A DNA stretch of 64,000 bases. Origin: Prostheceraeus crozeri. Lineage: Eukaryota; Platyhelminthes; Polycladida; Euryleptidae. Both the position numbers and the translations under genes were made by a program. The DNA is taken from the NCBI GenBank assembly GCA_907163375.1, contig CAJQUW010005318.1, positions 1 through 64,000 on the forward strand, given 5' to 3'. A model generated the notes under the pieces. It was not told the DNA's origin. It did not search any database and saw nothing but the letters and a program-made list of their open reading frames with translations. Every line of letters starts with the position of its first letter. Position 1 is the stretch's first letter. Shown in pieces: positions 1-45,908 of the stretch.

Positions 1-439
1 AGATTGCCACATGTACAGGTAACCAACAACTAATGAGAGCTGCAGGAAAAAGTTCGGGTTCATAACACAAATTGTAACTGCTGGTACGAATCTTCAAAAA
101 TGATACACTTTCACTCAATTGAGTAGAGATCACCATATTGTCCACAGTCAGATTCGACATCACACACCTCTCCCTCTTCCATATCCGACGTAGTAGTCTT
201 TGTAGCTCTAAGCGCATTGACTGCGCCGATGAATGAGAAAGGGCGCCGAGAATCTGTACAGTTCCATTTGGGAAGAGTTGAAGATTCCGTGAATTGTTCA
301 TCTTCACCACTAACATTTGAGGTCGGCCCGGGTAATACTTGCTGTTTGGAAGCTGTTGGTGTGATGTTGTGAGATCGATTTTGGTGTAGAGTCTGAAGCG
401 ACGGAGAATGTTGACGATGGTGTAGCGATGACGCTTCAT
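1..439 (-). CDS. TBP-like protein, truncated by the window edge
   Basis: The frame starts at ATG 439-437 and stays open for 146 codons to the window edge, so the C-terminus is missing. It aligns almost end to end with the 179-residue TBP-like protein at 34802-35341. Shared stretches include GRPQML, RNLQ(L/I)F and QILGALSHS against QVLGNLSHF. The second half reads YEPELFPAALI, close to the YEPELFPGLIYRM of eukaryotic TBP; this is the part of TBP that inserts a phenylalanine into the TATA minor groove. Visible are repeat 1 (about residues 3-85) and the start of repeat 2. The likely role is promoter recognition for element transcription; this is inference. The gene overlaps the next one by 329 bp in another frame. 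Confidence 0.75.
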   Translation of the reverse strand, partial: MKRHRYTIVNILRRFRLYTKIDLTTSHQQLPNSKYYPGRPQMLVVKMNNSRNLQLFPNGTVQILGALSHSSAQSMRLELQRLLRRIWKRERCVMSNLTVDNMVISTQLSESVSFLKIRTSSYNLCYEPELFPAALISCWLPVHVAI

Positions 440-11098: not shown

Positions 11099-11208
11099 AT
11101 TCTGTAGAAGGAAAGATAAAATAGAATTACTGACAAGTAACATTGACAATCATTTTAAAAATACAACTAATATGTCATTCAATACTTGAGGATAGACAAG
11201 CTAGGCTG

Positions 11209-24369: not shown

Positions 24370-24377
24370 CTACAGAA

Positions 24378-26024
24378 ATGGTTGTCGCATTTAGTGATTT
24401 TGAGAGCGTGGTATTATACAGTCCTTACATATACTACATTATTGCACTGCTATTTGTTATTGAAGTAATCTTGGCCAGCATTGCATATCGAAACCGGATT
24501 CACAATAATTCCACTGAGGGAATAACAGATGAATATGAGAATTGTCGGCAAAAAATTCAAGCAATATTTGTTGTCATAACTTGTAGCCTGGTTGGCAACA
24601 TGACCTCTATGGATCTATATGGAAGGCCATTTATAAGTATCGGTTTCATTCTGGCAAGACTTCTAACATCTTTGTTAGCTACTCCATTCTTGCTATTATA
24701 CCGAAAGAATTCGATGAATTTGCTTGAGTACTTTGATCGGCGCTTTAAAAGTAATTTTTTTACTTATTATGTCGTTATAACTGGACTTACACTATATTTC
24801 ATACAATTGAACTTGAGTCTTACCGATATTTTCAAAGTGTTTCGAGCATACGGTATGGGCGAATTTACAATGCTTGCAGTGATGTTTGCATATACTTCAG
24901 TGATAATCCCATTAGGTGGAGTTAGAGGGTTTGTATGGATTGGAGTATACCGATATTGTGTCGTGTTTGTATTGAGACTCGTTCTTGTAATTCAACTTTC
25001 TTTGAGTCTAGCAAAAGGTGACCCACCGAAATTGAATGAATTGAGAATGCCCAGTTCGAGCGACACGATCAGAGAAATATTTACTGGTTTAATTGGTTCT
25101 ATGTTATACTTCCTATCTGTAAGCATGGCGTCTTGTTCGTGGTGTAAATACACGAATTCAGTATCTTCAAGCAGGTCTGCAAAGATAACAATTTATGCCA
25201 GTATTGCTCCATACAGTCTTCTAATCCTCATGAAAGATGTTATAGTAGGTCTATGTTATTTATATTACGCTCAAGGAAGCTGCGATCCAGTCGGTGCAGG
25301 CCGAGCAGCGAAATCCGTGTTGGTGTATAGTTTCCTGCAAGAAGTTGTGGTAAATTCAATGCATTATCAACTAATGTACACTGTTTCGGACATTTTGGTT
25401 GGAACGTTCGTGATAGCTGATTGCCTTATGTCCTATTATTTTCATATTTCTTTTGTGATAAAAAAATTTCGACAGCCACAAGATTGTCAATGGGATATAC
25501 CTCGCCTGCATGCAACAATAATCGGCTGTCTCTTATTCGGAGGCATATATATACTGTTAAATGTAGTAAACCAAGAGTCGATATTTTGGTGGATTCACGC
25601 TTATTTGGAATTGATAGGCTTATTGTTCATTATGTCAATGACAGCAGTAATGATTCTTGGGTCCCTCTTACCACAAATGAGTTCTATGTCCCTGTGGGTT
25701 CTACCTTTTCAACAGGTAATCACTATTTTTCTTCTTGTCTCCAAGGCAATGGACACTGCGATGACTTTTGGAAAATCTTATGGATCAACTTGTGTTTTTC
25801 AATATAAAAATTGTTCTATGCCGTGTGAATATAGATGTACTAAGGAATATCATTCAGTTTATCTAGTATATGTCTCAGGGGGAGTAATTGGTGCATGTGG
25901 ATTGACAGTCTTCGTTATAAACAGAATCTCAAACAAATCTTACCGCAATCTTGATGTAGATATGTATTTATCTGCAGCTGTAACATTCTGGAGGAAAAAA
26001 TATGGTACACGACGACGAAATTGA
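24378..26024 (+). CDS. SLC5-like sodium/solute symporter
   Basis: The 548 residues from ATG 24378 follow directly after a good splice acceptor (exon start 24370), so an upstream untranslated exon is likely. The protein has about 12-13 hydrophobic segments. Family features are the LYGRP turn after the second segment, NSMNLLEYFDRRF (the SSF 'YEYLE-x-RF' position), the GGVRGFVWIGVYR segment and the VNSMHYQLMYTVSDILVG segment. These fit the sodium:solute symporter fold; substrate cannot be told. A Cys-rich loop (CVFQYKNCSMPCEYRC) lies before the last segment. The coding part has no intron, unlike most animal SLC5 genes, so it may be a retrocopy or belong to a lineage-specific expansion. Confidence 0.65.
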   Translation: MVVAFSDFESVVLYSPYIYYIIALLFVIEVILASIAYRNRIHNNSTEGITDEYENCRQKIQAIFVVITCSLVGNMTSMDLYGRPFISIGFILARLLTSLLATPFLLLYRKNSMNLLEYFDRRFKSNFFTYYVVITGLTLYFIQLNLSLTDIFKVFRAYGMGEFTMLAVMFAYTSVIIPLGGVRGFVWIGVYRYCVVFVLRLVLVIQLSLSLAKGDPPKLNELRMPSSSDTIREIFTGLIGSMLYFLSVSMASCSWCKYTNSVSSSRSAKITIYASIAPYSLLILMKDVIVGLCYLYYAQGSCDPVGAGRAAKSVLVYSFLQEVVVNSMHYQLMYTVSDILVGTFVIADCLMSYYFHISFVIKKFRQPQDCQWDIPRLHATIIGCLLFGGIYILLNVVNQESIFWWIHAYLELIGLLFIMSMTAVMILGSLLPQMSSMSLWVLPFQQVITIFLLVSKAMDTAMTFGKSYGSTCVFQYKNCSMPCEYRCTKEYHSVYLVYVSGGVIGACGLTVFVINRISNKSYRNLDVDMYLSAAVTFWRKKYGTRRRN

Positions 26025-29192: not shown

Positions 29193-29585
29193 TACCTAAA
29201 ATGGGGTGAATTGGGACGGATTTTTCAATTATTTTACTTTTTCATATGTTAAACAATTTAATTTCGTCCATTCCATAGTACTTATATGTATTTCAGAGTT
29301 TCATCTCAGGATTATCGCATAATTTGTATAAATTAATGCATGATAACTATCTGAAATATCCCATCAAAAATTGTCCCGACTCACCCCTCTTGAGGGTGTA
29401 TTGGGACATGCCACATGAAAACTACAAGTAGCCCAAGCAATGTTTTCTTTAATTACAAATCGCTTTCATAGTTTGTTCTTTTCTATTACAAAAACCAAAG
29501 CACAAATAATTTTGTCTAAAATCTTTATTCTATTAGCTATAAACAGTTACCACAAATGTTTTTCTAAAAAATCTATAGAATCGTG

Positions 29586-30315
29586 AGTAGTAATCCCATT
29601 GCAAATTCAAGCCCAAAATGTGAAATGCTGACTCAGCCCCCACCCCCGACCCCACCCTCTGGAAGGAAGGTGAGGGAGTTCGTCAAGGATGTGCTGGGAG
29701 GAATGGGTCCGTGAGGAGGAAACTGTCCCCCCCCCTCGGCACCGATCTTCCAACTTTGGTTGTAGAGATGGTAGAAAGTCGTGCAATAGCTCATTTGAAA
29801 GCTGAGAATGAGAAAAAGGCAGTGGAAAGCTCAGTTTGGACTCATTTTCTTGGGTTTAGGGAGGAAAATGGCAGGAAACTGTCAGAGTTGGAAAAAGTCA
29901 GGTTTTGGAGGTTTTGGGATGAGAAAAGTCGTTTTTCGACATGAAGGAGTGCTTGGATGGGAAAATGGAGTGCAAATTCGGACGTTTTGGCCAATTTTGG
30001 GTCTAGGAACGTCTTCCCAACTCAATCGGAGAGAAAAAGTTCTGACTCCCACCCCCCCTCGGCACCGATCTTCCAACTTTGGTTGTAGAGATGGTAGAAA
30101 GTCGTGCAATAGCTCGTTTGAAAGCTAAGAGTGAGACAAATTCAGTGGAAAACATGGCTTGTTCGTATCTGCCTTCGTTTAGAGGTGAGACGTCATTTAA
30201 GATTTTGGGAGATTGGCGAAGAAACGACAGGGTTAGAATGTTTATGAAAATCGCTCTAGCGTGTGAAGCAAGCCTCGGACGGGAAAACAGAGACCAGATT
30301 TGGCATCAGCGTGTC
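29586..30315. repeat. Left terminal inverted repeat of element B
   Basis: Pairs with 45147-45876. Inside it, the block ACTTTGGTTGTAGAGATGGT, preceded by a poly-C tract and CTCGGCACCGATCTTCC, occurs twice about 322 bp apart (from about 29735 and 30057). The right-hand repeat mirrors this. Confidence 0.9.
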
Positions 30316-30368
30316 ATGTTGCACCTGAATGTCATTCATGCTATGTCTCCGAAGTGAAAGGAAGAAAG

Positions 30369-30791
30369 ATGACAGAAGCAGTAAAGTTTACGAATGAATT
30401 TTGTTCACTACATTTTCATCGACAAAGTCTTCGTGGTGTGATTAGGGACTACATCATCTCCTTTCATCATGAAAAGGCAGACTTAGAATTTGCTATCGCT
30501 AAAGGTTACTTCGTTTTCCAACAGCTCATGGACAGTTTGATGAATAAAGATGTGAAAGGACGATTAGTTGCAGAGATTGAATTTGAGAAAGTGACTGATG
30601 AACATGCAGGTGAACGTGTAGTGTTTCATTTTGCATCCTATTCTGCAGAGACGATACATGATCCCAAAGATTTCTATCAGCGACACATGGCAAAAATTGC
30701 ATCTCGACTAGATTCATTTCATGAGCATGGATCCAACTTGCTCTTATGTCGCATAAAACACATTCATATTCAACTCAATGTGTTAAACTAG
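30369..30791 (+). CDS. Stand-alone relative of the PolB N-terminal region, copy 1
   Basis: This 140-residue protein (MTEAVKFTN start) is homologous to the frames at 32982 and 41717. Shared blocks are a Cys/His-containing N-terminus, (D/K)VKGRLVA(E/Y)IE, a DP-x2-FYQRHM block and a C-terminal LLLCRIKHIHIQL. The same arrangement is seen in the region just upstream of the exonuclease domain of both PolB proteins (MKALIYLKIKYVKI ... LNIDKFNERDSG). This is the only one of the three copies without a stop. It lies immediately inside the left terminal repeat. The function is unknown; a replication accessory role is a guess. Confidence 0.6.
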   Translation: MTEAVKFTNEFCSLHFHRQSLRGVIRDYIISFHHEKADLEFAIAKGYFVFQQLMDSLMNKDVKGRLVAEIEFEKVTDEHAGERVVFHFASYSAETIHDPKDFYQRHMAKIASRLDSFHEHGSNLLLCRIKHIHIQLNVLN

Positions 30792-30893
30792 ATTTGACTA
30801 CAAGACTTGGGTAAAGCATTCATGAGTCAGACGTCCGCGTGCCTCCTTTTCCCTGCCGCAACGAAGTCAGGGGAGAAACGGAGGTCTCTGATT

Positions 30894-31056
30894 GGCTCAC
30901 ATAGTGTCAAATGTGGATTCGCAGGAGATTATAAAAGCAGACATCTCCCCATTTTCTCTTCATTTCATTCTCTTGACTTGGAAAGCGTGTGTGACTTGCT
31001 GAATCCATTCTGCCCTCTCAACTTTGTCTGATCAATCCTGTTTGCAAATTTACAAG
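30894..31056 (+). promoter_or_regulatory. CCAAT/TATA promoter and spliced leader for the rightward genes
   Basis: GATTGGCTCAC (a CCAAT box, about 30889-30899) is followed by TTATAAAAGC (about 30934-30943) and a leader that ends at a donor, ACAA/GTGAGTGT, with the intron starting at 31057. Acceptors that could be served are at 31099, 31412 and 32272, each just before a start codon, so one leader may feed several genes by alternative splicing. Confidence 0.55.
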
Positions 31057-31127
31057 TGAGTGTCATGACTGTCTCGCCTAAACCTTACCAGCATTTTAGA
31101 AGAGAGACGCAGGAGAGTGTGTGGCCG

Positions 31128-31295
31128 ATGATTGTACAAGCTTATTTTGTTGAACCATCACCGCCACCGCCACCACCGCCTAGACTCTTTACCTTTAAGT
31201 CTTTTAGGGAATTGAAACTCAATTCGGGTCCTAAGCCCAAGACATTTAATTTACTGGACGATGACGAAGACTTAGACTTTGGTGATCAGCTTTAA
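31128..31295 (+). CDS. Small proline-rich protein with acidic tail
   Basis: A short frame of 55 residues begins at the first ATG after a splice acceptor at 31099; it is open further upstream to 31056. It has seven consecutive prolines, a basic middle and an acidic C-terminus (LLDDDEDLDFGDQL). Acidic tails of this sort occur in single-strand DNA-binding proteins, but nothing else identifies it. It lies first in the rightward gene series. Confidence 0.4.
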   Translation: MIVQAYFVEPSPPPPPPPRLFTFKSFRELKLNSGPKPKTFNLLDDDEDLDFGDQL

Positions 31296-31418
31296 ATCCT
31301 GTGAACGCTCCAAAAGGTCCTCTTAAGGGCCACCTCATATGTCACTGCTAAGCTAACAATTTTCTTTTCTCTGATGATCATGAATGTACTTAGTGGTATT
31401 CTTTCGTTACAGACTGCC

Positions 31419-32099
31419 ATGGCCATGAATCCTACTCCAACTGCTGCATCACTGAATCCTGAACATCTCGAGCTGTGGAATCCGAAAATTGAAAAGGTAA
31501 TTTACGGCTATTCTACCTACAAACAACAAGTGCGCTACAACGGTGTTCGACTCTATCTTCAAACGCCGGCGGTATACTTACCAAAAGTGGATACGCAAGT
31601 AAATCGTTGCGGTTAAAACCTGAGTATCCCTATTAATTGGTTGCGAGCAGCAGACGTTTTTTTTTAGAAGACTTTGGCAAAAGGCTCTTATTCTACTATA
31701 GAACTATTACAGTTGTGGCCAGAAAAGAAAACTTCTTATTATAAACCATTGTATCGCGGCACTCGCTGCTATATTTTACAAAGCAAGTATTGTAAAGTCA
31801 CTTCAGGAGTGACAGTTGAACAATCAGTTGAAACAGAATTGTCATCGCTAGGTGCAGGCTTTTGTTCATTTCATATTGAGGTGCCTGCTGTTTATGTGGG
31901 ACCTCATCAATCTGACGGTAATTTGATTTCTCTCAATTTGCGCATTGCTCAAATTCATCATCAACCTGAGTTAGCAGGACTTGATCACATTGAGAAAGTC
32001 ATTGATTCTTGTGTCAAAGAGTGTCAAGAACCTGTCACTAAACCTAAACGTCGTCGCACATCAAAGAAAGATGGTGCTACCACCAAAGAGAAATCTTAA
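31419..32099 (+). CDS. 'QTP/YxGP' family protein, two exons
   Basis: An acceptor (TCTTTCGTTACAG, ending 31412) precedes ATG 31419. The first exon ends at 31598 (CAA/GTAAAT) and the second begins at 31668 after TTTTTTTTAG, in phase 0. This intron of 69 bp removes the stop that otherwise ends the first frame. The product is about 203 residues: an RYNGVRLYLQTP block, YKPLYRGTRCYILQ, then SFHIEVPAVYVGP and a basic Lys/Arg-rich tail. The 33706 gene is a paralogue (SFEIKIQTIYMGP). I recall related proteins in DNA-virus-like elements without an established function; single-strand binding is possible. Confidence 0.55.
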
Positions 32100-32250
32100 G
32101 TATTGTAATCAGTTAGTATGTAGTGAATGTGGAAAACGCGGTCTTGCGCGTTATGTTCAAATAAAACATTGTCATCATGTTGTATGTATCTTTTGTTATG
32201 TAAAGGACAGACATCCTTGTAAAGTCCCTGCTCAATGCATTATTTTGTAA
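32071..32250 (+). CDS. Small RING-like zinc-finger protein
   Basis: The 59 residues from ATG 32071 overlap the end of the previous gene in another frame. The pattern is C-x2-C-x11-12-HC-x-H-x2-C-x2-C-x7-C-x5-C (CSEC ... HCHHVVCIFC ... PCKVPAQC). The C3-x-H4-x2-C5-x2-C6 core is as in RING fingers, while the last pair is wider than usual. Such domains in viral genomes often act as ubiquitin ligases, but a structural zinc role is equally possible. Confidence 0.5.
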   Translation: MVLPPKRNLKYCNQLVCSECGKRGLARYVQIKHCHHVVCIFCYVKDRHPCKVPAQCIIL

Positions 32251-32305
32251 TGACGTCTTTTTGATATTGTAGGTTGTCATCTTCATAGACAGTGAGAGAA
32301 CGCCC

Positions 32306-32659
32306 ATGCAGGAATTGAGTGCTATTGCAATGAGAGAAAGTGATCAAACTGTTGTTAGTGTATATCATAGATTTGCCTACTGTCCTCCACACAAAGACGA
32401 ATGGTCACGACGTCATGTGCATGGACTTGATCCTTCTATTTTGATTCATATTGGATTTGTAAATGAAACGTATTTGATAAGTGATTTCAAACGGTGGCTG
32501 TCAGGTTTTCATATTGTTAAAATATTAGGAAATGATTCTGAACGAGAAGCAACAACACTTCAGTTGCACATTGATAATTTATATTTACCATGTTGGGTAG
32601 ATCGTGTAAGACAAGACTATCATATGCATTGTGACCAAAGAAGTTTAGAGATGAAATGA
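32306..32659 (+). CDS. Unknown 117-residue protein
   Basis: The ATG at 32306 follows a splice acceptor (GATATTGTAG, ending 32272). The protein has no recognised domain; it contains two short Cys/His patches (FAYCPPHKDEW and MHCDQ) and is otherwise mixed. Nothing coding was recognised between it and 32982. Confidence 0.4.
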   Translation: MQELSAIAMRESDQTVVSVYHRFAYCPPHKDEWSRRHVHGLDPSILIHIGFVNETYLISDFKRWLSGFHIVKILGNDSEREATTLQLHIDNLYLPCWVDRVRQDYHMHCDQRSLEMK

Positions 32660-32981
32660 TTTTTGACATGGCAATATGTTTCGGTGAGAGACATCACCTT
32701 TACAGACCACCATCCCATTGTAATACTAGAAATAAAGCTACCTACATTGCAAAACTCTCTTCACGCTGGCATTGTAGTCTCTATGACGTTTATGAACTGT
32801 ATCTATGTTATTGTCAACAGCATGGGTCTATGTAAAACATGTTTTTGCTCCTTGTGAATGAATGATGATCATTTTATGAAGTGTATTCTGTACTTGTAAA
32901 TTTTGTTTGGTGTTGAATGAACTTACAGTGGAACATGATTGTTATTTCTGCTTTATTCATAGTGGAAGTCATTGAAGCAAT

Positions 32982-33428
32982 GTGAAATCTATAGTTACAT
33001 CGTTTATGATGGCGCATCGTACCTTAAGTAACCACATGTGTCATTTGACTCTTGATAAACAAGGATTCGATGGATTTTTACAAGATTGGAAACTTACATT
33101 TAAAATGAAGATGAATGATATGAAAGTAGTGCTCACTGAAAGCCTTCCTCTCTTCAAAAGATTGATGGAGAGTTTGCAACCTCAAGATGTAAAGGGTAGA
33201 CTCGTTGCTTATATAGAGTTGAAAGATTTACAAAAACCACTTCGTTTTGGATCTTATTGCACAAAATGGATTACTCTTAGTGATCAATTTTATGGTCGTC
33301 ATATGTAGAAAATTATGGAGAGAATAGAAGAGACGTTGGAAGGAAATGCGTACGTTGTTAAACATATCATGATTCAACTGAGTGTGTTTACATCCACGAC
33401 TTTGTTTGATGCGCGACACATTGTGTAG
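32982..33428 (+). pseudogene. Relative of the PolB N-terminal region, copy 2, with one in-frame stop
   Basis: Residues follow the copy at 30369: QDVKGRLVAYIEL, then QFYGRHM. A TAG at 33306-33308 stands just after the RHM block. In the same frame beyond the stop the homology resumes (KIMERIEETL, HIMIQLSVF) and ends at TAG 33426. The interruption is one codon only. Confidence 0.6.
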
Positions 33429-33480
33429 ATGCAATAATGATTTCTTTTCACTGAGTATTTTGTAATGGTGTATAGAGCAA

Positions 33481-33744
33481 CATGAGTCATTGCGCTTTGT
33501 GCATTACTATCAGGCTCTTTGTTAGATAAATGAATGCGTCGTTGTTCGAGAAAAGGGGCGTGTCATAACATGAGTCATTCCGCTTTGTGCATTACTATCA
33601 GGCTCTTTGTTAGATAAATGAATGCGTCTTTGTTCGAGAAAAGGGGTGTGTCACAACATGAGTCATTGCGCTTTGTGCATTACTATCAGGCTCTTTGTTA
33701 GATAAATGAATGCGTCCTTGTTCGCTAGAAGGGATGTGTCATTT
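33481..33744. repeat. Three tandem 88-bp repeats
   Basis: Units start at 33481, 33569 and 33657 with CATGAGTCATT. The third is slightly diverged, and its ATGAATGCGTC is the apparent start of the next frame (33706). Position and copy number suggest an upstream regulatory array. Confidence 0.85.
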
Positions 33745-34356
33745 CCGTCTGAGCGCATGGCAATCATTTCCGTCCTTGCGCTAACCATGCGGTTGCTCGA
33801 AGCCATCAACTCCTCTGCTCTCGCACTGGGTACACTGAACTCCCTTACTTTAGCATCGGGTAAAAATGCTTTCAATCAAAAGATAACTCATCATGGAGAA
33901 GCTGTAACCATAAAAACTCCAAGTCATCGGATAGATTATCTAAACATTATGTCAACAATGTATGGAGTGGCCGTGTGTGTGCCATTAGACTATTGGACAC
34001 GGTTACAATTCAATACTCTTGAAACATTCCTGAAAGAAAATCTCACCATTCCCAAAGAAATTGTTCGACACAATGGGAAGCGGCCACAAGTTCCCATCAT
34101 GGAAAGACGATACATGTATGTGCATATGGATAGACACTGTCTCATCATCCATGAAAAGGAGGGCAGCGAATTCGACTTACTCAATTGCAAACCACTCCAC
34201 ATTTTGGGAAAAGGATTCTACTCCTTCGAAATTAAAATTCAAACCATCTACATGGGTCCGCGCAGGGACGGAAGGTTGTTTACGTTGAATCCCTATCTTG
34301 TTTCCATCACCTTTAAAAATGATGTCCATGTTGATGATCATGATCAACTACAGTAA
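33706..34356 (+). CDS. 'QTP/YxGP' family paralogue
   Basis: Up to 216 residues; the first 60, encoded partly by the third 88-bp repeat, are not conserved and the true start may be later or spliced. The remainder parallels the 31419-32099 protein: ITHHGEAVTIKTP, MERRYMYVHM, then GFYSFEIKIQTIYMGPRRDG. The function is unassigned. It precedes the TBP-like pair on the same strand. Confidence 0.5.
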   Translation: MNASLFARRDVSFPSERMAIISVLALTMRLLEAINSSALALGTLNSLTLASGKNAFNQKITHHGEAVTIKTPSHRIDYLNIMSTMYGVAVCVPLDYWTRLQFNTLETFLKENLTIPKEIVRHNGKRPQVPIMERRYMYVHMDRHCLIIHEKEGSEFDLLNCKPLHILGKGFYSFEIKIQTIYMGPRRDGRLFTLNPYLVSITFKNDVHVDDHDQLQ

Positions 34357-34512
34357 CACTCTCCACACACTGAGAACGCACCATCGGTCTTTATGAGACC
34401 ACGGCCTAACGGCCACCGTATCAAGAAAGAAAATGTACACTCACCATGCCACACATGAACATGACTCTCTCCTTCTTTCTTAGGCATACCCTTCTTTACT
34501 CAAGTTTTAATC

Positions 34513-35142
34513 ATGTGGAAATTATCAGCATGTCTCCATGTATCATGGAAAAGTCAGTGTGTTACATTTCATGATACGAAACGTCAACTTCAGATAACTC
34601 TAGAACGCTTTCATCTACGAAGGTTACATCGCGCTATCCTATCCCACTCTTGCCGTGTCATTAACGTAGGAGACAGCATTGTATTTATTCGCATTCAAGA
34701 GATGATTCTACATAATGATCACTGCTACATTGTGATTCCAAAACCCTCATGGGAAAAGTATAAAAGGGAAGTTCACTCAACCCTCATGTCATTTGTGAGT
34801 CATGCTCCCCATCCGCATCATCAACGCCATGCGCGAAATGAATCTCAGAAGAGACATCGATTTAGAAAAGTTGCATACCCATCTTCCCGATTCAGTCTAT
34901 CATCGCGGTCGTCCGCAAATGTTGGTCATTCGCATGAGCAACGGTCGAAATCTTCAAATCTTTCACTGCGGCAAAATCCAAGTCCTAGGAAACCTTTCTC
35001 ATTTCGTGATGCAGTCCATGTGTTACGAAGTCGTCAAGAAAATGCGAACACTCATGCCTCATCTACGCCTCAGTCCCCTGACATTGAAGAATATAGTAGT
35101 GTCTGTTCAATTGAAGATGTTAGTGTATCTAGCCAACATTAA
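34513..35142 (+). CDS. Basic SWEKY-module protein that overprints the TBP-like gene (element B)
   Basis: A 209-residue counterpart of the element A protein at 111-761. The beta-rich N-terminal part ends PSWEKYKREVHSTLMSF, followed by a His/Ser/Arg-rich stretch and the conserved RKPFSFRDAVHVLR patch and acidic end. From 34802 its DNA is also read one frame on (+1) as the TBP-like protein, as in element A. PC4-like single-strand binding is a weak structural guess. Confidence 0.6.
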   Translation: MWKLSACLHVSWKSQCVTFHDTKRQLQITLERFHLRRLHRAILSHSCRVINVGDSIVFIRIQEMILHNDHCYIVIPKPSWEKYKREVHSTLMSFVSHAPHPHHQRHARNESQKRHRFRKVAYPSSRFSLSSRSSANVGHSHEQRSKSSNLSLRQNPSPRKPFSFRDAVHVLRSRQENANTHASSTPQSPDIEEYSSVCSIEDVSVSSQH

Positions 35143-35341
35143 AACCAGTAATCATTGTATATTTTATGAAACTGAACTCTTTCCTGCTGCTCTGATTCGG
35201 AAGTGGCATCCTGCACATATTGCAGTGTTTCACAACGGACATTGTATCATTACTGGTTTACGTGATATCAGTAAAGTAGCTGACATTGTTAAATCTTTAA
35301 TGCGTTATCTGTATGAATCACAGTTAATAGAATCGTGTTAA
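34802..35341 (+). CDS. TATA-binding-protein-like protein (element B)
   Basis: The 179 residues form two repeats of the TBP fold. Repeat 1 is about 3-86 (DIDLEKLHTHLPDSVY, RPQMLVIRM, LQIFHCGKIQVLG) and repeat 2 about 92-172 (LKNIVVSVQL, YETELFPAALIR, AVFHNGHCIITGL). Cellular TBP has YEPELFPGLIYRM and IFVSGKVVLTGA at the latter places. Three of the four DNA-intercalating Phe positions are kept (IFHCGK, ELFP, VFHNG); the fourth is Pro (GRPQM). The two-repeat length agrees with a core TBP. Expected role: binding TATA promoters of the element or competing with host TBP. Partner factors were not found. Confidence 0.75.
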   Translation: MLPIRIINAMREMNLRRDIDLEKLHTHLPDSVYHRGRPQMLVIRMSNGRNLQIFHCGKIQVLGNLSHFVMQSMCYEVVKKMRTLMPHLRLSPLTLKNIVVSVQLKMLVYLANIKTSNHCIFYETELFPAALIRKWHPAHIAVFHNGHCIITGLRDISKVADIVKSLMRYLYESQLIESC

Positions 35342-36266
35342 TCACATGATGTGTTTTAAATGAGTCATCACAATGAACTATCGTCCACACACGTGTCGGT
35401 GAAAAGGTTATCTACAAGGTTCTTCGCTTTATGATGAGTCAGCGCTATTTATACACATGAAATGATGTCCACACACTTGTCGGTGAAAAGAGCTATTTAT
35501 AGACATGCGTCAGCAAAGTGGTTGATGTTTCCTAAGCCGAAGAAATTGCCATGATGTTACATGCGTTGATGAGGATGTTAACTTACAAACTCTAACATGG
35601 TTTTGACTTTATTTTATACTTAACCTATCTTGAAAATAGTGAAATACTTATGACTTCATTTTATATTTCACCTATCCTACAAACTGTACAAACAGTGAAA
35701 TGATTTTAACATTAATTCAAACTTTACAATCATCAACTTTATTTCTAACTTTACAAACAGTGATTCTAACTTCATTTATATTTCACCTATCTTACAAACT
35801 GTACAAACAGTAAAATGATTTTGACATTAATTCAAACTTTACAATCATCAACTTTATTTCTAACTTTACAAACGTCAACTTTATTTCTAACCCTACCCAT
35901 CTTACAAAATGATCAAAACTTTTACTTCTGTCTAATGAGTGAGAATTCCATCTGTATGTCAAAAGAAGAACGACACAGTCTGTACATGATATGTTATTCA
36001 TCATCACAACCGATTTTCATAGCACTCCACATAGTTAATACTGATGGTAGTAGAAAACAAAGTTTTATGGCTCACATCACCAGAGAAAACAAAGTCACTG
36101 ATATGCAGGGAGAAAACCAGGAAAAAACCAGTTGATATGTAAGTCATGATATGAAGTGATCAGGAGTTGGACGCATGTTACAAGGCACTCACTCACAACG
36201 CACCATAGAAAACGCCATGGAGTAAAAAGCAAAACATCAACCACGACAGAGAGGAAGCATTCATCA
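35342..36266. repeat. Convergent noncoding region with tandem duplications
   Basis: No gene is seen between the TBP-like stop and the PolB 3' end. A unit of about 130 bp containing CTGTACAAACAGT and ATTCAAACTTTACAATCATC occurs twice (from about 35669 and 35799). A shorter pair (ACAC-TGTCGGTGAAAAG) lies at about 35390 and 35473. Element A has its G-x-WEVG genes at this place, so this may be where they were lost. Confidence 0.6.
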
Positions 36267-39200
36267 TCAGACATCGCCGGACGGAGGAGGAGAAAGTTTC
36301 TGTCTCTTGGGTGGAGGTAGATGAGTGTCTGGATGGCCGTACGGTAATGAGTGGTTAGGACTCATCCAGCATCGCTTGTCTTCCCAAGCAGAGAGATCTC
36401 GTTTCCTAAACGTCGTTGTTCTGACTTGATGCGACTGAGATTTTAAAATGGTCATTTCTACTTTTTTGATTTTAAGTTAATCTAAGGCATCTTGATAGTC
36501 CCTATGTGTCATTTTTCTAACGATTGACTTCGAGATGCCTTTCGCCCGTTTTATAGGAAGCTCTGAGGATTTTAGCTTCATGGAGTACATCTTGGGGCGA
36601 AGCAAGATCATCTCCTCTATCTGTTTGCCGGCACACTCATCCTTGAAGCAGCCAAGCTTCGCTTTATTTGAGGTAGAGTAAAGCGGATGGTCAGTGGGAT
36701 AGTTGGAACTATCAAACTTGGGTGCTAAATATTTTAAAATGTCTTCCTGCTTGACTTGGCTCGTGGTTGTCAAAGCTAGGAAGAAGCTGTCTGAATCACC
36801 TCCTACTAATTCCACACGTTGGAGAAGTGGACATGTCTTAAAAGTGTGGTAAAATAACTTGTACATTTCTAACTTGGAGTGATCCAAGACAGCTTGACCG
36901 ACATAAATGGGCTTACAAAGTTCTACTTTAGATTTTAACATTTTAAAACCAGTGATGTCTTCGGAAATGACATCATGGTGGCAAAACAACGGCGAGCGAC
37001 ATAACTTGATACTCGTTTCTGGATCAGTTACGATGCGATAGTCCATGCGCTTTCTTACATCCTCCATGGTTTTACCAAAGAGGGCATTATTCTTAAATTT
37101 AAAGAAGTCCTTTTCGAAAGGATTCTTGTATTCAGCCCGTTTCTTGCTATTAAATTCTATATACGGTTTTAGAAAGGGCTTCTGCTTAAACTGGATAGCG
37201 CGATGGACGTTGTCAAGTTGCATCCCCATACCTAGATAGAATTTGAGGATGGAATAGTGCACGATGTAATGCTGCTTGTTCAATTGGGTGAGCAACAACT
37301 TCCTAGTGGGTTTATTCTTTAAGTCATTTTCCGCCTCATATTTCTTATTGTGTTCTTCCATAAAGGGAGAGAACATATCTGGACTGACTATGCCAGATTC
37401 GGGTGCGAGAGGAAAATCAGCGGTCCTATTCTTAATGCAGTCTGGATAGATGAGGTCGACTTCAAATAAATAACCTATGTCGGCCTCATCTCCCAGTGCC
37501 ATGATGTGTGCTGGATTGGAGAAGTGTTCAATGTCATGGGGCTCTACCCATTGGAAGTCAGACTGTGGCAAAGGCTTGGAGAGTGCACTCCCATACAAAT
37601 TATTTTGGTCTATGTACATTAAATGCGTGGTCGATCTTATGTCTTGGGTGCTGTTGACAACATGTTTGTTAACAAATGTCAAGCCACCCCTAATACCACG
37701 TTCAAATAACGTATACATTTCTGCATCTTGCAGTAAATGAATGCTCTCTTTCGTCATCTTGAAGGCTGACTGATAGGACAGACCCGGCAGACTAACAAAA
37801 TGGACGGGGTCTAAGGCGTCCTGTTCTAATGTGACTTTCCTAAAAGTCTCAAACACGTCAGCCAACAGATAGACGTCCAGTTTTAAGTAGGCAAGCATGT
37901 AGTCACCAAACGTGCAACACCTAAATTCTAACCATGCTTGCTCTGCATGCCTATAATCATCCAGCGAACAGTCCTCACCCGTCAAATCATTTTTAAACTT
38001 ATCAATGGACGGAAGGGATGTCTCCTTCAATGTATCCATTGAACTAAAATTATTATAAGGAAACACCCCTTTCCGTCGTATCAGACTGTCACTTATGTTG
38101 GGATAGTCTTTCTTTAAATGTTGAGTGAGGGGAAGTGTTTCTAAATTATTAGCCAACGCGGATAAGGAAGAAGACATAAACTGGAAACTGTCCAGAAACT
38201 TTATGTCATAGAAGACAGGCTTCCCCTCCTTCGTCTTATCGACTTGGACTTTAGCAGTGATGCACATAAATTTTTCCTTACTTTGTGCAATCACTTTGGA
38301 TGACCAGGATTTCATTTTACCGAATTCATGGCGAATGATGATGTGAGCATCATAACATTTAAAGTTATGAAAGATGACGGGGAGCATTCGCCGTTTGAGC
38401 CTAAGTTTCATATTGCATTTACTGCATAAGGCAGACCTAAATTTACCACTGAGATGGCAATGGTCCCTCACTCTCTTATGTTGCTGATCATCAAAGGATG
38501 AACAGCAGCGGGGACATTCCGTGGTCTTATCAAATTTGATTTTATCGGCTTCTGTGAAGCACATGGGTTTCCTAGTTAGCTCCGTTTCATAGCGTTGATG
38601 AAAACGGGCTTTCCTATCTAAAAAGTTGAGGAAGTTTTCAACGCACTCCTCGCCTTGCCACACATGCATCTTATTTTGGTTCCTATAATATGGATGCAAA
38701 ACTTCATAACAGGCAATGGCTGCTGGCTCATGACTTAGGTCTTCTTGTTCAATATAACATTCAATGTCCGCATAGATGGTACATATGTGACTGAGCTCAT
38801 TGCCGTTTTCCTCATACCTATAAAATTTATCTTTGGGCATGACTTCCATTTGAAGCTTATTACCCTGAGAGCACCACTCGTAATGCTCTTCAAAAAATGC
38901 TTTTGATGTGAAACGCCGTGTGCAGCGATCACAGTAATAATGTTTGTTATCATAACTTTGCTGGTGGTGATACAATCTAGAAATTTTGGGAATGCCACAA
39001 TAATGCCATTCTGGGTGGTTGTCGCTATAGACTAGGAGGAGATTGACAACCCGGTCGAAGTTACTTTGGCGATTATTATACCTAACGCCCTTCAGACCTT
39101 TTTCCCAGAGATGGATGACAATCTTAATATTGTTGAGTTTTTCAAATTGGGCGATGCCTTTAAAATCTAATGTGTTGACATCTAACCCGTCAAACTTAAG

Positions 39201-41086
39201 CTCATCCTCCCATTCACAATACTTGGTGACTCTTTGACGATGCACCCTTGTATCATTGTAGTGAAGAATGGAGAGGACGGCATACTTGAAACACTGGGAC
39301 TGACATTCTTCATTGATGACAACCTTTTTGTCAGCCAGTGCTTTGGGGAGAGTGAAACAACCACTCCCTTGTAAATTTTCTAAAAGATTGATTTTGATGT
39401 CTACCTTCTCTATCCCATCAAAGACCAGACCGCTGTCTCTCATTAAATTTATTCAAGTTGCTGACGAGATAGGTCGCATGTCTCTCTACCCACTCGTTTA
39501 CATCACCTATGAGATCAGCAGCACAGGAGGCTATCCTAATGGTCACAGTGGACTCTACTTCTCCCGTGCTACTGTCTACCTTATTGAAACGAGCAGTGAG
39601 ATAGAACATACCCTTAAGTAAAAATCTATCTAAACTCGCCAACATTTGATGAATTAAGCCTATATGATTCATCAAGAAAGGATGAATGTCCTGCACAGCT
39701 TCAGAGCTTTCTAACTCATAATCGCGAACGAGCCTCTCAAGGGAAAACTTGCTCAGCCTTAGAGTGACGTTGTTGTCAGTGTAAAGCCCAGTGGAATGTG
39801 TGTGACAGAGTGTGTGCGAAGAAAGAACAAACTCTGTAGGAAAGGTCTTCTGACACGAAGAACAGGAAAAGCCGACGTGTGATGAAGGATGCTTCCTACC
39901 TGTTGTTGTCGGTGGTTGCCTCACACTGCCACAGGAACCGCCTTTGATGTGGACTCGCAAGTTGGTGCTGTTGTAGAACGTGCGTCCAGAACCTTCACAC
40001 TTGGGCCGTTGAGGGATCGGTCGGCGTTTTCCTCCCCTGCAGGCATGGCCAGCGGTGTGACGTCTCAAACTGTAGGCTGAGGCGATGACCCTGTCACACC
40101 GCTGGCATCGAAAGTCCTCCTCTTCGACTTCCATCTCCCTCTCCTCTCCGACGATCTCCAACTCCTCCTGCTCCAACAATCTCTCCACCGACTTGACGGA
40201 GAGGAGAGGGAGTTCGGCCGCTGCAGGTGGTGGTGGTGATGCCGGGATGATGGGACGGGAGGGAACGTCGCCGTCCAGGAGGTAGGCCGCCAAATCTGTT
40301 GAGAAAAAGAGAAAAGAGATTAGTAACATGATCAACATTTCAAGTTTGAAGTCTTAGCCCCCTATTTCCCAATCACGATTACTTACCATCTAAGGACTGT
40401 AACTCCGGCAGCAAGGATGGACGCGGAGGAGGCAGGAGAGGGACACGAGCCGAGGGTGGAAGGGTCCTGGGCTTCGGTGTTGGAGGGACGTGATGGCGAG
40501 GAGCAGGGACTGGCGCAGGTACCGGAGCTGGTGGCGGTTGAGGTGGGGCGAGAAAGATGCCCGAGAAAGGTGTCGCAGCTTGTGCAGAGGTAGATGGGCG
40601 GGAAGGTAGGGTCGGAAATTCAGCTTCGAATCTCCGCCTCGCGGCTTCTTCCCACTTCTTCTTCTTCGCCATATCTGTAGAGAGGAAAGAGAGATTAGAT
40701 TAGAGGTTGTGGAGATAATAATGATGGAGAGTAAGCTATACGAATACAGAAGTGCTAAAACATGACATTCCAACTCTCATAGGTGAGGATACTTACACTT
40801 TCCGAGCCGCTCATAGGCTTCCCCGATTGCTCCTTGGGGGACGGGTTCCCCATTACGAATGCATTCATGTACTGAAAAAGAATGACGGCAAAGATAAGCA
40901 GAGGTAAAATTTGGATTCGGTTTAAACATGAACAAAATAAGGGAAGGGCTCTTGATTTTAATGAGGATGACTACCCTAATGATGTTAGTAATAGAGTCAA
41001 CCTTGATACAAATACTTACATTGCTCGATGGTGGCATTTTCCATCTCGACAGCAATGCGGTAGTTCTCAATTTTCTTGGATTCCAT
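36267..41086 (-). pseudogene. polB: Protein-primed family B DNA polymerase of element B (five exons, broken)
   Basis: Splice sites give a leader exon (ends 41534), then exons 41125-41020 (ATG at 41086), 40871-40797, 40674-40387 and from 40295 down; all coding introns are phase 1. The N-terminus is lysine- then proline-rich, followed by C2H2 fingers, the exonuclease motif YADIECYI, an endonuclease-VII-like Cys/His patch, FHNFKCYDAH, and the polymerase motifs YIDQNNLYG, KNNALFGKTMED and GGDSDSFF. Two lesions are present: loss of two bases of a GA repeat near 39437 (frames 40338-39418 and 39443-36477), and an in-frame TAA at 36477-36479 with the conserved tail (KRDLSAWEDKRCW) continuing beyond it. 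Neither lesion coincides with the one in element A. Confidence 0.85.
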
Positions 41087-41533
41087 TTTTGATCGATTGC
41101 AGATTATGTTAGTAGATTTCAATCACTGAAAAGGAAAGATGAAAATCGTTTCATTTGCCTAGTCAACGTTTATTATGGGAACAATCATTGAAGTGACATC
41201 TAATGAATTACATTTCCCTCTACTCCATATCATAAAGACTAACCTTTGTCGAATGGCTGAAGTACTCTGACCTGGCGAGAGAAAGCGTCACGTTGAGTAT
41301 GAAGTCGAACGCCCAACATGAGCAACGGCTCAGAGGTTTCGGTCTAACAAACGACGAACAACCCGTGCAACGCAATCCCACTACGGCAGTACCCGCCGTC
41401 CAGAAGGAACGCTCGAGCAAAGGAGGTATTACAGCGATGATATGTTTCATGAGCAGAAGATGTGATAGCAAGAGACTATTCAACTTGATAGCAAGTCAAA
41501 ACAACCTGATAGCAGGAGCTCACCGACACTCAC

Positions 41534-41582
41534 CTTGTGAAAGATAAATGTGAAGAGCAGAGCTGGTGCACTGCCTTTTATA
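41534..41582 (-). promoter_or_regulatory. PolB promoter and leader exon (element B)
   Basis: TATAAAAG (41575-41582, minus strand) is followed 40 bp later by a donor, CACAAG/GTGAGT (exon end 41534). The acceptor at 41126 (TTCCTTTTCAG) starts the exon with the PolB ATG. A CCAAT sequence (about 41620, plus strand) could serve the divergent gene at 41717. Confidence 0.6.
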
Positions 41583-41716
41583 AGATTTTCTTAAGTGGTG
41601 AATGGATCAGACCTCTCGTCCAATCACAGACGAGCTAAGAGTTCCCGATGTGCGTACGCACAATTGTAACGCGTTATTGAAATCGTGTTAGGCAAAAATG
41701 TTGTTTTTGACCAACC

Positions 41717-42169
41717 ATGGCACCTGAAGTCAATACATTGAAACATGATGATTGCTCGATTCGTTTTCATCAAGAGTGCTTCGGAGGCTTAATACAAGAT
41801 TACATCCTTGAGTTTCAAAGGGAGGAGACAGAATTGGAAGCATGCTTAGACTAAACACGAAAAATATTTACGGAGTTGATATCTTATTTCAAAGACAGTC
41901 TCATCAAGGCTCACTTAATTGCACATGTCAATTACATTCATTTTCCAGAAGGTGAAGTAGCGGAAAGTGTTGATTTTCAATTTCGTTCCTGTGGACAAGA
42001 ATATGTTACTGATCCTCCGGTTTTTTATACACGACATCTACGGAAGATTATTTCTCGTATGGACAACTTTCATGGTTACGGTGATCATTTGCTTCTGAAT
42101 AAAATAAAGCATATGGTCATTGCTATTAGTAAAGTGGGTTTCAATGATGTTAAATCAAAGACCAAATAA
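41717..42169 (+). pseudogene. Relative of the PolB N-terminal region, copy 3, with one in-frame stop
   Basis: It starts at ATG 41717 in a good context (ACCATGG). The early part (SIRFHQECFGGLIQDYILEF) matches LHFHRQSLRGVIRDYIISF of the 30369 copy. TAA at 41852-41854 interrupts; the same frame then runs on through DPPVFYTRHLRKIISRMDNF to 42169. It is divergent from PolB. Confidence 0.6.
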
Positions 42170-42448
42170 AGTATTTTTTCATGACACTTGTGTTGTGCTA
42201 AACGTTCTAATGCTGTGGTGTACACCGTTTTCATATAACATTCTAAACTCTCATTGCAGTACAAGACTGCTTTTAGTAAACCTGATGAAGCGAATCTAAC
42301 AGCCATGAATTTTTCTAATAAGGGAAACATTTGGCAACTGTCTCCCATAAAACTTTCTAACATTGAAAGTAAGTTACAAGACAATCTACACTGTGCAGTA
42401 AAACCTTCTAAAACTTTCTAGTGCTGCTGTGAGTTCGGTCAGTCATAC

Positions 42449-42645
42449 AACGTCATGATCAAACTTTTCTAACTATACATCAACCTTTGTTGCAGTAAAA
42501 ACTTTTGTACAAACCATGATACACTTTCTGACTAGACTTATGAATAAACGTCATGATCAAACTTTTCTAACTATACATCAACCTGTGTTGCAGTATAAAC
42601 TTTTGTACAACATGATAAAGTTTCTGACGACACTGACAAGAGCTT
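42449..42645. repeat. Two tandem 98-bp repeats
   Basis: The words CGTCATGATCAAACTTTTCT and TTGCAGTA-AAACTTTTGTAC recur 98 bp apart. They lie in 42170-42650, which holds no convincing gene. Confidence 0.75.
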
Positions 42646-42707
42646 GTTCACTAGCGAAGCGAGAAGTCTATGATGTGTTGCGTGTGGCGCATGAATGTCC
42701 TCCCGTT

Positions 42708-43968
42708 TCATCCCTTCATCATTTTTCTTCCCCTCTGCATTCCATATCCGAAGATATGTGGCGGGCTTGGGACCGCTTTAGCTGCATTAGAAGGTTGGAC
42801 CTTAAAAGAGCCCATGGGTCGTTCTCCGTCCACCGACACTCTCACTTCTGCAAAAACTCTGAAAGAAAAAGTATAGGAGATTAGAGGCGGCAAGGAAATG
42901 ATGATATTGAAGTAACTTACTGGGCAACTTCTTCCGAACTTTTCGGACGACGAAGTTCTCCAGCTCTCCAGTGATGTTCAAATTGATATATAGGCACCGG
43001 ACTCCGTCGCCCTCATAGCATTGCTGAGTCACATTGGGGTCGTCAGTGATTGTGGGGACGTCACATATATTATTTTGGAAGAGGGGAAGATGGACTTCAT
43101 ACACTCTTCTTTTTCTACTCTTCAAACACTCATGCAGTCGCTCAACTTCACCCGCCAACCTCTAATTTATACCCTTCACTTCCTCCGTCTCCTTCACCAC
43201 GCTTCGCATCCGCTCTATCTCTTCATCCTTCCTCGACAAACTCGCCTGCAAACTCTCCACCAAACCTGCCTTCCTCATCAACTCGCTCCTTTCCGCCATC
43301 CATTCCTTTTCCTTCTTTCTCATACTCTCCAACTCTTTCCTCGTTGCCCTATACCCCTCAACCTTCGCCACCAGCTCTTCATTCTCCTTCAAAACTTTTC
43401 TATTTACACTTTCCAAACCCATCACACGATCCTTCAACCTAACAAATGCCTCCGTATCACACCTCTCTTCCCGCCGTGGCGATGACGCTGCCATCGGCTT
43501 ACCCACTTCCTCACCCTCCCCCTCCAGATCACCGATATCCCCAAACAAATCCTTAATCACCTTATCCAAATCAACATCATCCTTCTTCTTCATTTCCGCT
43601 CTCAACTCAACTTCCTCTCTAGAACTCTCATCACTCGCCTTCGTCACCACTTTTTCCCCAACCACGCCCTCAATCGTTGCCACCGCCTTCCTCACCTCTT
43701 CCCTTTCCAAAAACTCTCCCTCAAACCACTCCTTGAACCCTGCCATAGCTATATTGCCACTTGGACACTCGTTGTGATCCTTAATAAATGCCACCTCATT
43801 CCCTTCCCCACATACCACCCGATGATGGACGCACACTCTCAACAACACCTCTCTCATATGCACGCCCACCGTCCCCTCTTTAATGTGCTTCCTCAGCTCA
43901 CTACCTCTGGCAATCTTGCCGCAACTGCATTTGCCAACCAACATTTTTGCATTGCTTGATTTCGTCAT
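42708..43968 (-). pseudogene. Coiled-coil zinc-module protein of element B, with one in-frame stop
   Basis: The ATG at 43968 lies seven bases after a splice acceptor (intron end 43976). The N-terminal Cys/His module (GKCSCGKIARGSELRKH) matches element A, an acidic middle follows, and about 130 residues of coiled coil end at TAG 43162-43164. In the same frame the coil resumes (AGEVERLHECL) and leads into the conserved C-terminal domain (CYEGDGVRCLYINL). A donor at 42920 joins to an acceptor at 42859 or 42857; the second keeps a frame open to 42708, the first ends within six residues. Confidence 0.65.
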
Positions 43969-44167
43969 TATGATTCTGTAAAGATAGAGTAAAATTTGAT
44001 GGCAAGTGTTTATAGGATACTACTTGATGATATGCATTGAAAGACTAAGTCATCAAACATTTGATAGCAAACGTTGGAATAAAATCGTCAACCAAAGTTA
44101 AAGAGTATGATTCCTAGCTTTATCCTAAATCCCAAAGTTTGATAGCAAACCTTGTCAGAGCACTCAC

Positions 44168-44225
44168 CGTTCGTCTTGCAACTTGAAACAGGAGTGAAGA
44201 CTAGAGAAAAGTCGCGGTTTATATA
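44168..44225 (-). promoter_or_regulatory. TATA box and leader exon of the coiled-coil gene
   Basis: TATATAAAC (44217-44225, minus strand) precedes a leader ending GACGAACG at a GTGAGT donor (exon end 44168). The acceptor at 43976 lies just before the start codon. Confidence 0.6.
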
Positions 44226-44519
44226 CCCAGCGAGCACAAAGCTATGATTCAGACCTTCCTTATTTGGTCATGCTTTTAACTTGACAACAGCAGTTTTACC
44301 ATGTATGGGCATCGGCAGTCACCGTGCTTTCTGTTACCAACTCCCAACACAAATACGGATTCCCCTATGACGCGAAAAGGTTTGACGTCAATGCTTGCAG
44401 TAACCATCCCATTTTTACCAAGTTACAATGACAAACGATAGACGTTGCCAAGCCTGAGTTACTGAGGCTAGACGAAGAAGGCCTGATAGCAAGCCAGCAA
44501 CCGTTTGGGTGTTAAGCTC

Positions 44520-44680
44520 TTGAATCCGTTACAGGCATTACTCAGAGGGGATCTTATCCCAGCTCCAAGGCCTCGACCCACAAATCCAACCTCGGGCGGA
44601 CAGAGTGTGCGTCATATCACTGTGTTGGTATCCGGGCCCCAGTTTTGACATGAAAACCGGTGGAGTTATTTACAAGAGGA
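44520..44680. other. Highly conserved block shared with element A
   Basis: Counterpart of 11209-11370, at about 90 percent identity over about 150 bp. The plus-strand frame seen in A is open here too but has no ATG: an in-frame TAG lies 36-39 bp upstream of the aligned region. A minus-strand frame from ATG 44651 is open for about 37 codons. No acceptor that obviously serves either was found. Confidence 0.5.
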
Positions 44681-45018
44681 AACGACCCAAGTCACAGAGA
44701 CTCATAAACGACTGCTTTTTATTCAAAAACTTTAATTATTATCATTAAATATGAATTTAAATTTTTCAGTATTTTAGTACTCCTCATAAAACGTTTATAA
44801 GTAGTCTGTCACCTACAGCACAGCATGAGCTGTCGAATGTTTTTTGAATCAAGTCTAAAGGACTTGTAGAAGCAAAGTTATAGCCGTTAGAAGATTTCGG
44901 CCTACTATCATCAAATGGTCAGTCATGCTATACTGACTAACCTATAAGTCTGACACCTTAGCTGATATCGGCAATGGAAAGTCAGAAGTCCGATATCGGA
45001 ACTCAAGAAACGACTTAC

Positions 45019-45073
45019 CTGTAGTCAGTTTCTCAACTTAGTGAAATTCCTCTCCCGATCCCATTCTTATATA
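45019..45073 (-). promoter_or_regulatory. TATA box and spliced leader, minus strand, next to the right terminal repeat
   Basis: TATATAA (45067-45073) and a donor ACAG/GTAAGTCG (exon end 45019) have the same spacing as at 11769-11822 in element A. The intron would cover the conserved region that follows. Confidence 0.5.
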
Positions 45074-45146
45074 CCCTGTGAATATGCAATCGATAAGGGG
45101 GTGGCGGTGGGGGTCAAAACATCATTTGTCTCAAATTTGACGCTGA

Positions 45147-45876
45147 TTCCAAATCTGGTCTCTGTTTGCCCGTCCGACGCTTGCTTCACCTGCTAGAGCG
45201 ATTTTCATAAACATTCTAACTCTGTCGTTTTTCGCCAATCTCCCAAAATCTTAAATGACGCCTCACATCTAAACGAAGGCAGATACGAACAAGCCATGTT
45301 TTCCACTGAATTTGTCTCACTCTTAGCTTTCAAACGAGCTATTGCACGACTTTCTACCATCTCTACAACCAAAGTTGGAAGATCGGTGCCGAGGGGGGGT
45401 GGGGATGGGGGTGGGAGTCAGAACTTTTTCTCTCCGATTGAGTTGGGAAGACGTTCCTAAACCCAAAATTGGCCAAAACGTCCGAATTTGCACTCCATTT
45501 TCCCATCCAAGCACTCCTTCATGTCGAAAAACGACTTTTCTCATCCCAAAACCTCCAAAACCTGACTTTTTCCAACTCTGACAGTTTCCTGCCATTTTCC
45601 TCCCTAAACCCAAGAAAATGAGTCCAAACTGAGCTTTTCACTGCCTTTTTCTCATTCTCAGCTTTCAAATGAGCTATTGCACGACTTTCTACCATCTCTA
45701 CAACCAAAGTTGGAAGATCGGTGCCGAGGGGGGGGACAGTTTCCTCCTCACGGACCCATTCCTCCCAGCACATCCTTGACGAACTCCCTCACCTTCCTTC
45801 CAGAGGGTGGGGTCGGGGGTGGGGGCTGAGTCAGCATTTCACATTTTGTCCTTGCGCCTGCAATGGGGATACTACT
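45147..45876. repeat. Right terminal inverted repeat of element B
   Basis: Inverted mate of 29586-30315, with high identity and small length changes in poly-G tracts (for example at 45393 and 45728). It ends GGGGATACTACT, followed by the ATCGTG duplication. Confidence 0.9.
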
Positions 45877-45908
45877 ATCGTGCGCATGTAAATGCATCTA
45901 TGTTAAAC

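Follow-up and report, generated by a model that had tools for sequence, protein, structure and literature searches.

In this work we asked whether a mobile element of an animal genome can carry a gene for a TATA-binding protein (TBP) of its own. The question was raised by an open reading frame in the window, by which we mean the whole analysed stretch of 64,000 nucleotides of the polyclad flatworm Prostheceraeus crozeri, because a first-pass annotation had described its product as a two-repeat TBP-like protein encoded by a Polinton-like element. Our analysis showed that the product of 34802-35341 is a TBP-fold protein and that Polintons of this genome carry its gene as a regular component. These coordinates are the exact bounds of a forward-strand ORF of 179 codons from ATG to stop, and the opposite strand is interrupted by stops. 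The Pfam TBP profile (PF00352) matched two stretches of the 179-aa protein with E 1.5e-21 and 76.5 bits against a cut-off of 22.9; the two repeats occupy residues ~4-88 and ~93-173, and the original description of the protein therefore stands. A database search with the single sequence returned 89 proteins at E<=1e-3, every one with a TBP domain, and a profile search returned 257 at the same threshold, the best 120 of which were listed, while the remainder may contain TBPs of other kinds. We term these proteins relatives and not Polinton genes. Since the database matches all carry a TBP domain and exact 27-mers of the gene have hundreds to thousands of matches genome-wide, the ORF is not a product of chance.

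Structure prediction and profile searches had been proposed as checks of the identification. The profile searches return TBP, as described above, and the predicted structure is the two-repeat TBP saddle. The idea that the N-terminal half is a broken repeat was ruled out by a pLDDT above 90 in that half. Structural alignments to solved TBPs (rows 1-44) gave identities of 19-24%. Repeat 2 had been called strikingly close to cellular TBP; this is true of its YExELFP motif, which is identical, but the repeat shares only 30.0% identity with the host’s own TBP over 60 aligned residues, and repeat 1 shares 20.5% over 83 (the host sequence is incomplete at its end). We then counted conserved residues in 92 element or environmental TBPs aligned with the host TBP, one fungal and two archaeal TBPs. 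The four DNA-intercalating Phe positions, which we presume from alignment to cellular TBPs to be F54, F127, F143 and the site of Pro38, hold three phenylalanines instead of the full four expected of a TBP, just as had been noticed from the sequence. F127 and F143 are present in all 92 proteins, as is G152, and F54 in 90 (the other two have gaps), while the fourth site is Pro in 84; of the remaining eight proteins, five have a gap there and three a different residue. The proline makes a canonical TATA binder less likely and leaves membership in the TBP fold family unaffected. N97, V99 and E125 were found in 91 of the 92, E123 and T151 in 90, and L126 in 88. We take N97, V99, F127, F143 and T151 to be DNA-contact positions of cellular TBP, and E123, E125 and L126 to be its TFIIB-contact positions. 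In cellular TBP the N-terminal half holds the TFIIA side. Here N8 is found in 72 proteins (the remaining 20 have a gap), Met10 stands in place of Val in 71 (gaps in 12, Val in 6) and Leu62 in place of Thr in 83. As three presumed N-terminal DNA-contact positions are altered, TATA binding may be lost or changed, and the combination of a kept C-terminal with an altered N-terminal half suggests that recognition of one half-site has changed.

What could such a protein do for a mobile element? Judging from its residues, we think it fairly probable that it is an element-encoded promoter-recognition factor, with host TFIIB and Pol II being recruited. The C-terminal half would bind and bend a TATA-like half site, the changed N-terminal half would shift the preference for the other half-site, and the kept TFIIB-contact face would recruit host TFIIB and RNA polymerase II. 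That the elements have their own version of TBP suggests that they steer the host transcription machinery to their own genes. Among the element ORFs that were listed or Pfam-tested we noticed no TFIIB gene and none for an RNA polymerase either; for transcription they probably rely on RNA polymerase II of the host. No consistent TATA-like or common motif was found upstream of 25 element genes; GCAATATA, which lies near the divergent start of the OV gene (described below) and the minor-capsid-like genes in two of the element types, A and C, was considered as a promoter motif and dropped, its pattern being inconsistent. Could the protein act against host promoters rather than for those of the element? 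It might sequester TFIIB (or the Pol III factor Brf) or occupy host promoters, and so damp host transcription or element silencing instead of starting element genes. Such a decoy would be expected to keep its TFIIB-side residues, as this protein does, and could afford a remodelled N-terminal half with Pro replacing one intercalating Phe; the host genome also has targets that could be displaced, namely a normal TBP (exons on contig C9306) and a TLF/TBPL1-like gene (G000:C3829:151570-151938). However, a pure protein decoy has no need of near-invariant C-terminal DNA contacts, and an element resident in the genome profits little by harming its host. We therefore regard this explanation as unlikely and prefer the promoter-recognition factor.

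The element that hosts the gene, which we call element B, extends over 29586-45876 (16,291 bp). Its left terminal inverted repeat (TIR) covers 29586-30312 on the forward strand (727 bp, with the outer end AGTAGTA) and was delimited from the inverted repeats I2, I3, I6 and I15 and by alignment; the right one, from the inverted-repeat search and alignment, covers 45140-45876 on the reverse strand (737 bp) and has the same outer end. A perfect 6-bp target-site duplication (TSD), ATCGTG, lies outside both ends at 29580-29585 and 45877-45882, in this one copy. The long TIRs and the TSD, together with sister elements that carry integrase, protease, ATPase and capsid-like genes, bear out the Polinton-like nature of the element. 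On the reverse strand, 36477-39443 encodes a protein of 988 aa with an endonuclease VII-like insertion (PF02945, E 6.1e-5, slightly under the cut-off), which we take to be a type B DNA polymerase from the motifs YADIE, DQNNLYG, KFKNNALFGK, GDSDS and RPKMYS. No PolB profile of Pfam, NCBIfam or the PDB set matched it. It is 64% and 61% identical to the two pieces of the A-type polymerase, and the match to the C-terminus of the latter extends over 36270-36476 in a different frame. A C2H2 zinc-finger ORF at 39418-40338 on the reverse strand (PF00096, 2.8e-6) is the counterpart of the N-terminal part of the A-type polymerase ORF (E 9e-34), and sequence comparison relates the reverse-strand ORF at 43162-43968 to 9950-11149 of element A. 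There are also small forward-strand genes at 33706-34356, related to 31674-32099, and at 30300-30791, with kin stretches at 32976-33305 and 41855-42166; these last three stretches are mutually related and also resemble the zinc-finger/polymerase N-terminal region. At 33479-33742 an 88-nt unit is repeated three times in tandem, and this array extends into the beginning of the 33706 ORF.

With the protease, capsid-like, integrase, ATPase and minor-capsid-like proteins of sister elements as queries, tblastn gave no match in the window’s element B at E 1e-3, and the same five kinds were undetected at that threshold in three further B copies (L048/L049, L050/L051, L052 only partly covered). The small genes of the window’s element are present in L050/L051, and fewer of them were matched in L048/L049. 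Element B thus looks like a shortened, capsid-less form that moves as a unit. Pieces of its left TIR, 99 to 294 bp long, match the ends of two A-type copies with 83-91% identity; within the two C-type loci searched no match was found. For the functions that it lacks, B may depend on longer relatives whose end repeats are similar.

A second Polinton, of type A, lies at the left edge of the window and is truncated by the contig start. Its TBP gene (2-439, reverse strand; Pfam TBP 1.1e-14) is cut by the same contig end, and its product is 47% identical to that of B over 139 residues (E 4.8e-39). Three forward-strand ORFs (1176-1742, 1758-2573 and 2583-4133) are putative minor-capsid-like genes, named by general resemblance, and had no noteworthy Pfam match. 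The polymerase, recognized by sequence comparison and by what we take to be type B motifs, occupies 4438-8267 on the reverse strand in two frames. In the A-type copies L039, L041 and L053, TBP is adjoined on the opposite strand by genes for an Ulp1/adenain-type protease, a capsid-like protein, a small basic protein, a chromodomain-bearing rve integrase and a P-loop ATPase, this gene set being pooled over the copies. In type C (L044-L047) the genes follow the order of A, and the minor-capsid-like genes and the polymerase flank TBP on its other side. In the divergent type D (L042-L043) protease, capsid-like, ATPase and partial integrase genes lie beside a TBP gene with a stop, and the minor-capsid-like block is inverted. 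The integrase scored above the Pfam cut-off in A (2.2e-12) and C (1.4e-13), both with chromodomain, and in D only its C-terminal end was matched. The protease was above the cut-off in C (PF02902, 7.1e-5) and below it in A (1.1e-3) and D (0.093). For the ATPase, the profile of the A32-like packaging type stayed below the cut-off in A (E 0.026) and C (0.069) and was unlisted in D, and the ATPases of D and C are 60% and 64% identical to that of A. The capsid-like candidate, 52-54% identical between types, matched nothing in Pfam, NCBIfam or PDB profiles; we treat it as a candidate for the double jelly-roll major capsid protein from its general resemblance, its place next to the protease and its conservation. 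Outside the two Polintons, the window holds pieces of further mobile elements, with reverse transcriptase pieces at 17049-18848 (+), a DDE_1 transposase at 46352-47233 (-) and a reverse transcriptase with rve integrase at 58612-61531 (+). It also contains a 554-codon ORF at 24360-26024 (+) with many hydrophobic stretches, of sodium-solute-symporter type by eye and with a Pfam match at chance level only, and an inverted repeat of 528 nt (55576-56103 and 56286-56813), 98% complementary, with 182 nt between its arms.

How regular is the TBP gene in the genome? In the genome, which has 2,048,925,868 bases, a protein search with TBP gave 11,367 first-look candidates, the best 150 of which were scored, all with 95-100% identity over residues 1-179 or 2-179. 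No internal stop was present in 147 of them, a proportion that overstates intactness because the scored matches are the best ones. We fetched 38 loci, chosen as best-scoring and not at random; four proved to be exons of the host TBP or TLF-like gene and 34 were element loci. The two host genes suggest a bilaterian animal; the arthropod cuticle family PF00379 had no match, which is no more than a hint because the control found nothing either. Not counting OV, one or more further element genes accompanied TBP at every one of the 34 loci; an OV match was seen at 33, and in one of these (L012) it was confined to the TBP-near part. An exact 27-mer of the B-type TBP occurs 726 times (365+361) genome-wide, one of the A-type TBP 5,174 times (2,651+2,523) and one of the A-type capsid-like gene 4,683 times (2,284+2,399); the reversed controls gave 0 in each case, and since matching was exact these copy counts are lower bounds. 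Among the places listed, which are ordered by contig number, the A-type TBP 27-mer lay less than 1 kb away on the opposite strand at 79 of 88 capsid places (at exactly 784 bp in 59), the other nine having no exact TBP 27-mer within 1 kb. Conversely, the capsid 27-mer was within 1 kb at 79 of 100 A-type TBP places and absent at 21. It had been suggested that the same protein be sought next to the polymerase in further Polinton-like elements; this was confirmed for the elements of this genome. In IMG/VR no locus was found with TBP alone, the TBP alignment, the polymerase alone or its alignment, or the ATPase or capsid-like alignments, and the TBP alignment gave no match in GTDB genomes. If most of the 4,683 A-type capsid 27-mers mark copies of ~20 kb, the A family by itself would account for several per cent of all bases; shares of Mavericks in crustacean genomes are given in an excerpt of PMC9107163.

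High copy number might also be reached by a functionless gene, a copy of the host TBP that one element acquired and that spread by hitch-hiking. Some copies do have a stop inside TBP, 4 of 17 in B and 2 of 11 in A, as does the D-type copy, which is what a passenger would show. Pairwise dN/dS in the TBP frame is, however, 0.44 for the 17 B-type and 0.45 for the 11 A-type copies (2 of 13 A copies, lacking a full ungapped match, were excluded), whereas the same B-type DNA gave 0.90 and 1.13 in two other frames (calculated for B only), so that selection is specific to the TBP frame. In the TBP part free of OV overlap dN/dS is 0.53 (B) and 0.54 (A), which together with the stops indicates that many copies are decaying; as copies decay after insertion and pairs are not independent, all these values reflect neutral drift as well as selection on active elements. 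The descent of the gene also speaks against a passenger. In a tree built from 97 rows, of which 92 were element or environmental TBPs and five were cellular TBP/TLF rows (with the D-type left out), the two sets were separated at 100/100 on a very long branch, and a recent capture of the host TBP was rejected on this ground; between an archaeal and a eukaryotic origin, the length of the branch brings a risk of long-branch joining. Moreover, TBP is found in four diverged element types, and a single TBP sequence has 89 relatives in the databases. A passenger is thus very improbable.

The TBP gene overlaps a second gene, OV, at 34513-35142 on the forward strand of element B (209 aa), whose 3' part runs over the TBP start in a different frame. 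Element A has an OV gene at 111-761 on the reverse strand, which likewise overlaps TBP, and a second copy at 784-1140 on the same strand with no overlap. OV of A and B share 33% identity over 134 residues (E 9e-11), mainly within the TBP-overlapping part; the second copy of A is 44% identical to the first (E 5e-29) and 29% identical to OV of B over 80 residues (E 5e-5). The D-type locus has no OV match, and in B copies the OV part outside the overlap has a dN/dS of 0.81. A sequence search with OV produced 34 candidates, none of them a homolog at E<=1e-3, Pfam gave no PC4 or PUR match, and Foldseek gave nothing at E<=1e-3, its top rows being a dioxygenase, with human PURA standing at E 0.13. 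The OV paralog is predicted to have a fold common to single-strand-binding proteins, for which Pur-alpha, MRP1/MRP2, Whirly and PC4, representing the fold with beta4-alpha repeats, served as comparators. An earlier reading of OV by eye as PC4-like has been superseded, as Pur-alpha outscores PC4 in the fold comparison. Perhaps OV provides a PUR/PC4-like partner that binds nucleic acids when promoters are opened or in replication, a weaker inference than that for TBP.

In the short B form TBP, OV and polymerase are retained, which argues that TBP serves an expression or replication module and not virion building. Could the saddle instead bind the terminal repeats, or serve the polymerase or packaging by bending DNA, with no part in transcription? 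The retention of TBP with the polymerase in B, where integrase and capsid-like genes were undetected, would agree with such a role in replication or end recognition, and so would the single-strand-binding type of fold predicted for the OV paralog. It leaves unexplained, however, why E123, E125 and L126, which we take to be TFIIB contacts, are conserved in 88 to 91 of 92 rows, and we consider it improbable. We return, then, to a promoter-recognition factor. In its broadest form, our proposal would be of an animal Polinton lineage with a private transcription factor set, TBP and an overlapping PUR/PC4-like partner, which without an RNA polymerase of its own redirects host Pol II to its own promoters, and which even capsid-less satellites must keep; for this wider proposal we see about as much reason to accept as to doubt.

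We thus have strong confidence, from the evidence of identity and context, that TBP is a real, regular and unexpected gene of this genome’s Polintons, and moderate confidence in the proposed mechanism. The usual view is that small mobile elements, like small DNA viruses, employ the host promoter machinery unchanged, and to our knowledge viral TBPs otherwise come from large DNA viruses only. A TBP fixed in Polintons with thousands of copies would mean that elements from ~16 kb upward can supply a core promoter factor of their own. It would offer a handle on Polinton expression and bears on the origin of giant-virus TBPs, and one may ask how a single genome copes with foreign TBP genes in their thousands.

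Among the papers covered by our literature search we found no report of a Polinton, Maverick or adintovirus with TBP. The excerpt of PMC10675990 describes TATA-binding proteins as sporadic in putative mirusvirus-derived elements of a green alga without jelly-roll capsids. That of PMC11071296, about gene exchange in animal viruses, notes that some adintoviruses have zinc-finger transcriptional regulators. In the excerpt of PMC11071308 on double jelly-roll viruses none of the terms transcription, TATA, TBP and PC4 occurs, and a TATA match in that of PMC12220804 proved to be an author’s name in the reference list.

How, then, does the element TBP compare with known systems? With cellular TBP and TLF/TRF2 (TBPL1) it shares the two-repeat saddle, the YExELFP motif and the C-terminal DNA-contact residues; it differs from them in its structural-alignment identity of 19-24%, in the Pro for one intercalating Phe and in its place apart from host TBP and TLF in the tree. 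Among viruses, giant viruses have TBPs, for example Heterosigma akashiwo virus 01, mimivirus relatives and phycodnaviruses, and giant-virus TBPs were the best named folds in a BFVD structure search, the top named row being the TBP of Heterosigma akashiwo virus 01 (E 8.4e-11). The likeness is one of viral TBP folds, whereas identity to the element TBP is 7-17% in the 50 BFVD rows shown. Giant-virus genomes are also far larger than Polintons. The excerpt of PMC4602308 lists TBP and TFIIB for phycodnaviruses, and the Yellowstone Lake phycodnaviruses have the two together, whereas in the Polintons described here we noticed no TFIIB or RNA polymerase gene. With Polintons/Mavericks, finally, the elements agree in the long TIRs and 6-bp TSD of element B, in a polymerase with presumed type B motifs and, in the longer A and C types, in the rve integrase with chromodomain, the Ulp1/adenain-type protease, the P-loop ATPase and the capsid-like genes. 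The window’s element B departs from this plan in having no detectable integrase, protease, ATPase or capsid-like genes, and the elements of this genome depart from it in carrying TBP together with the overlapping OV.
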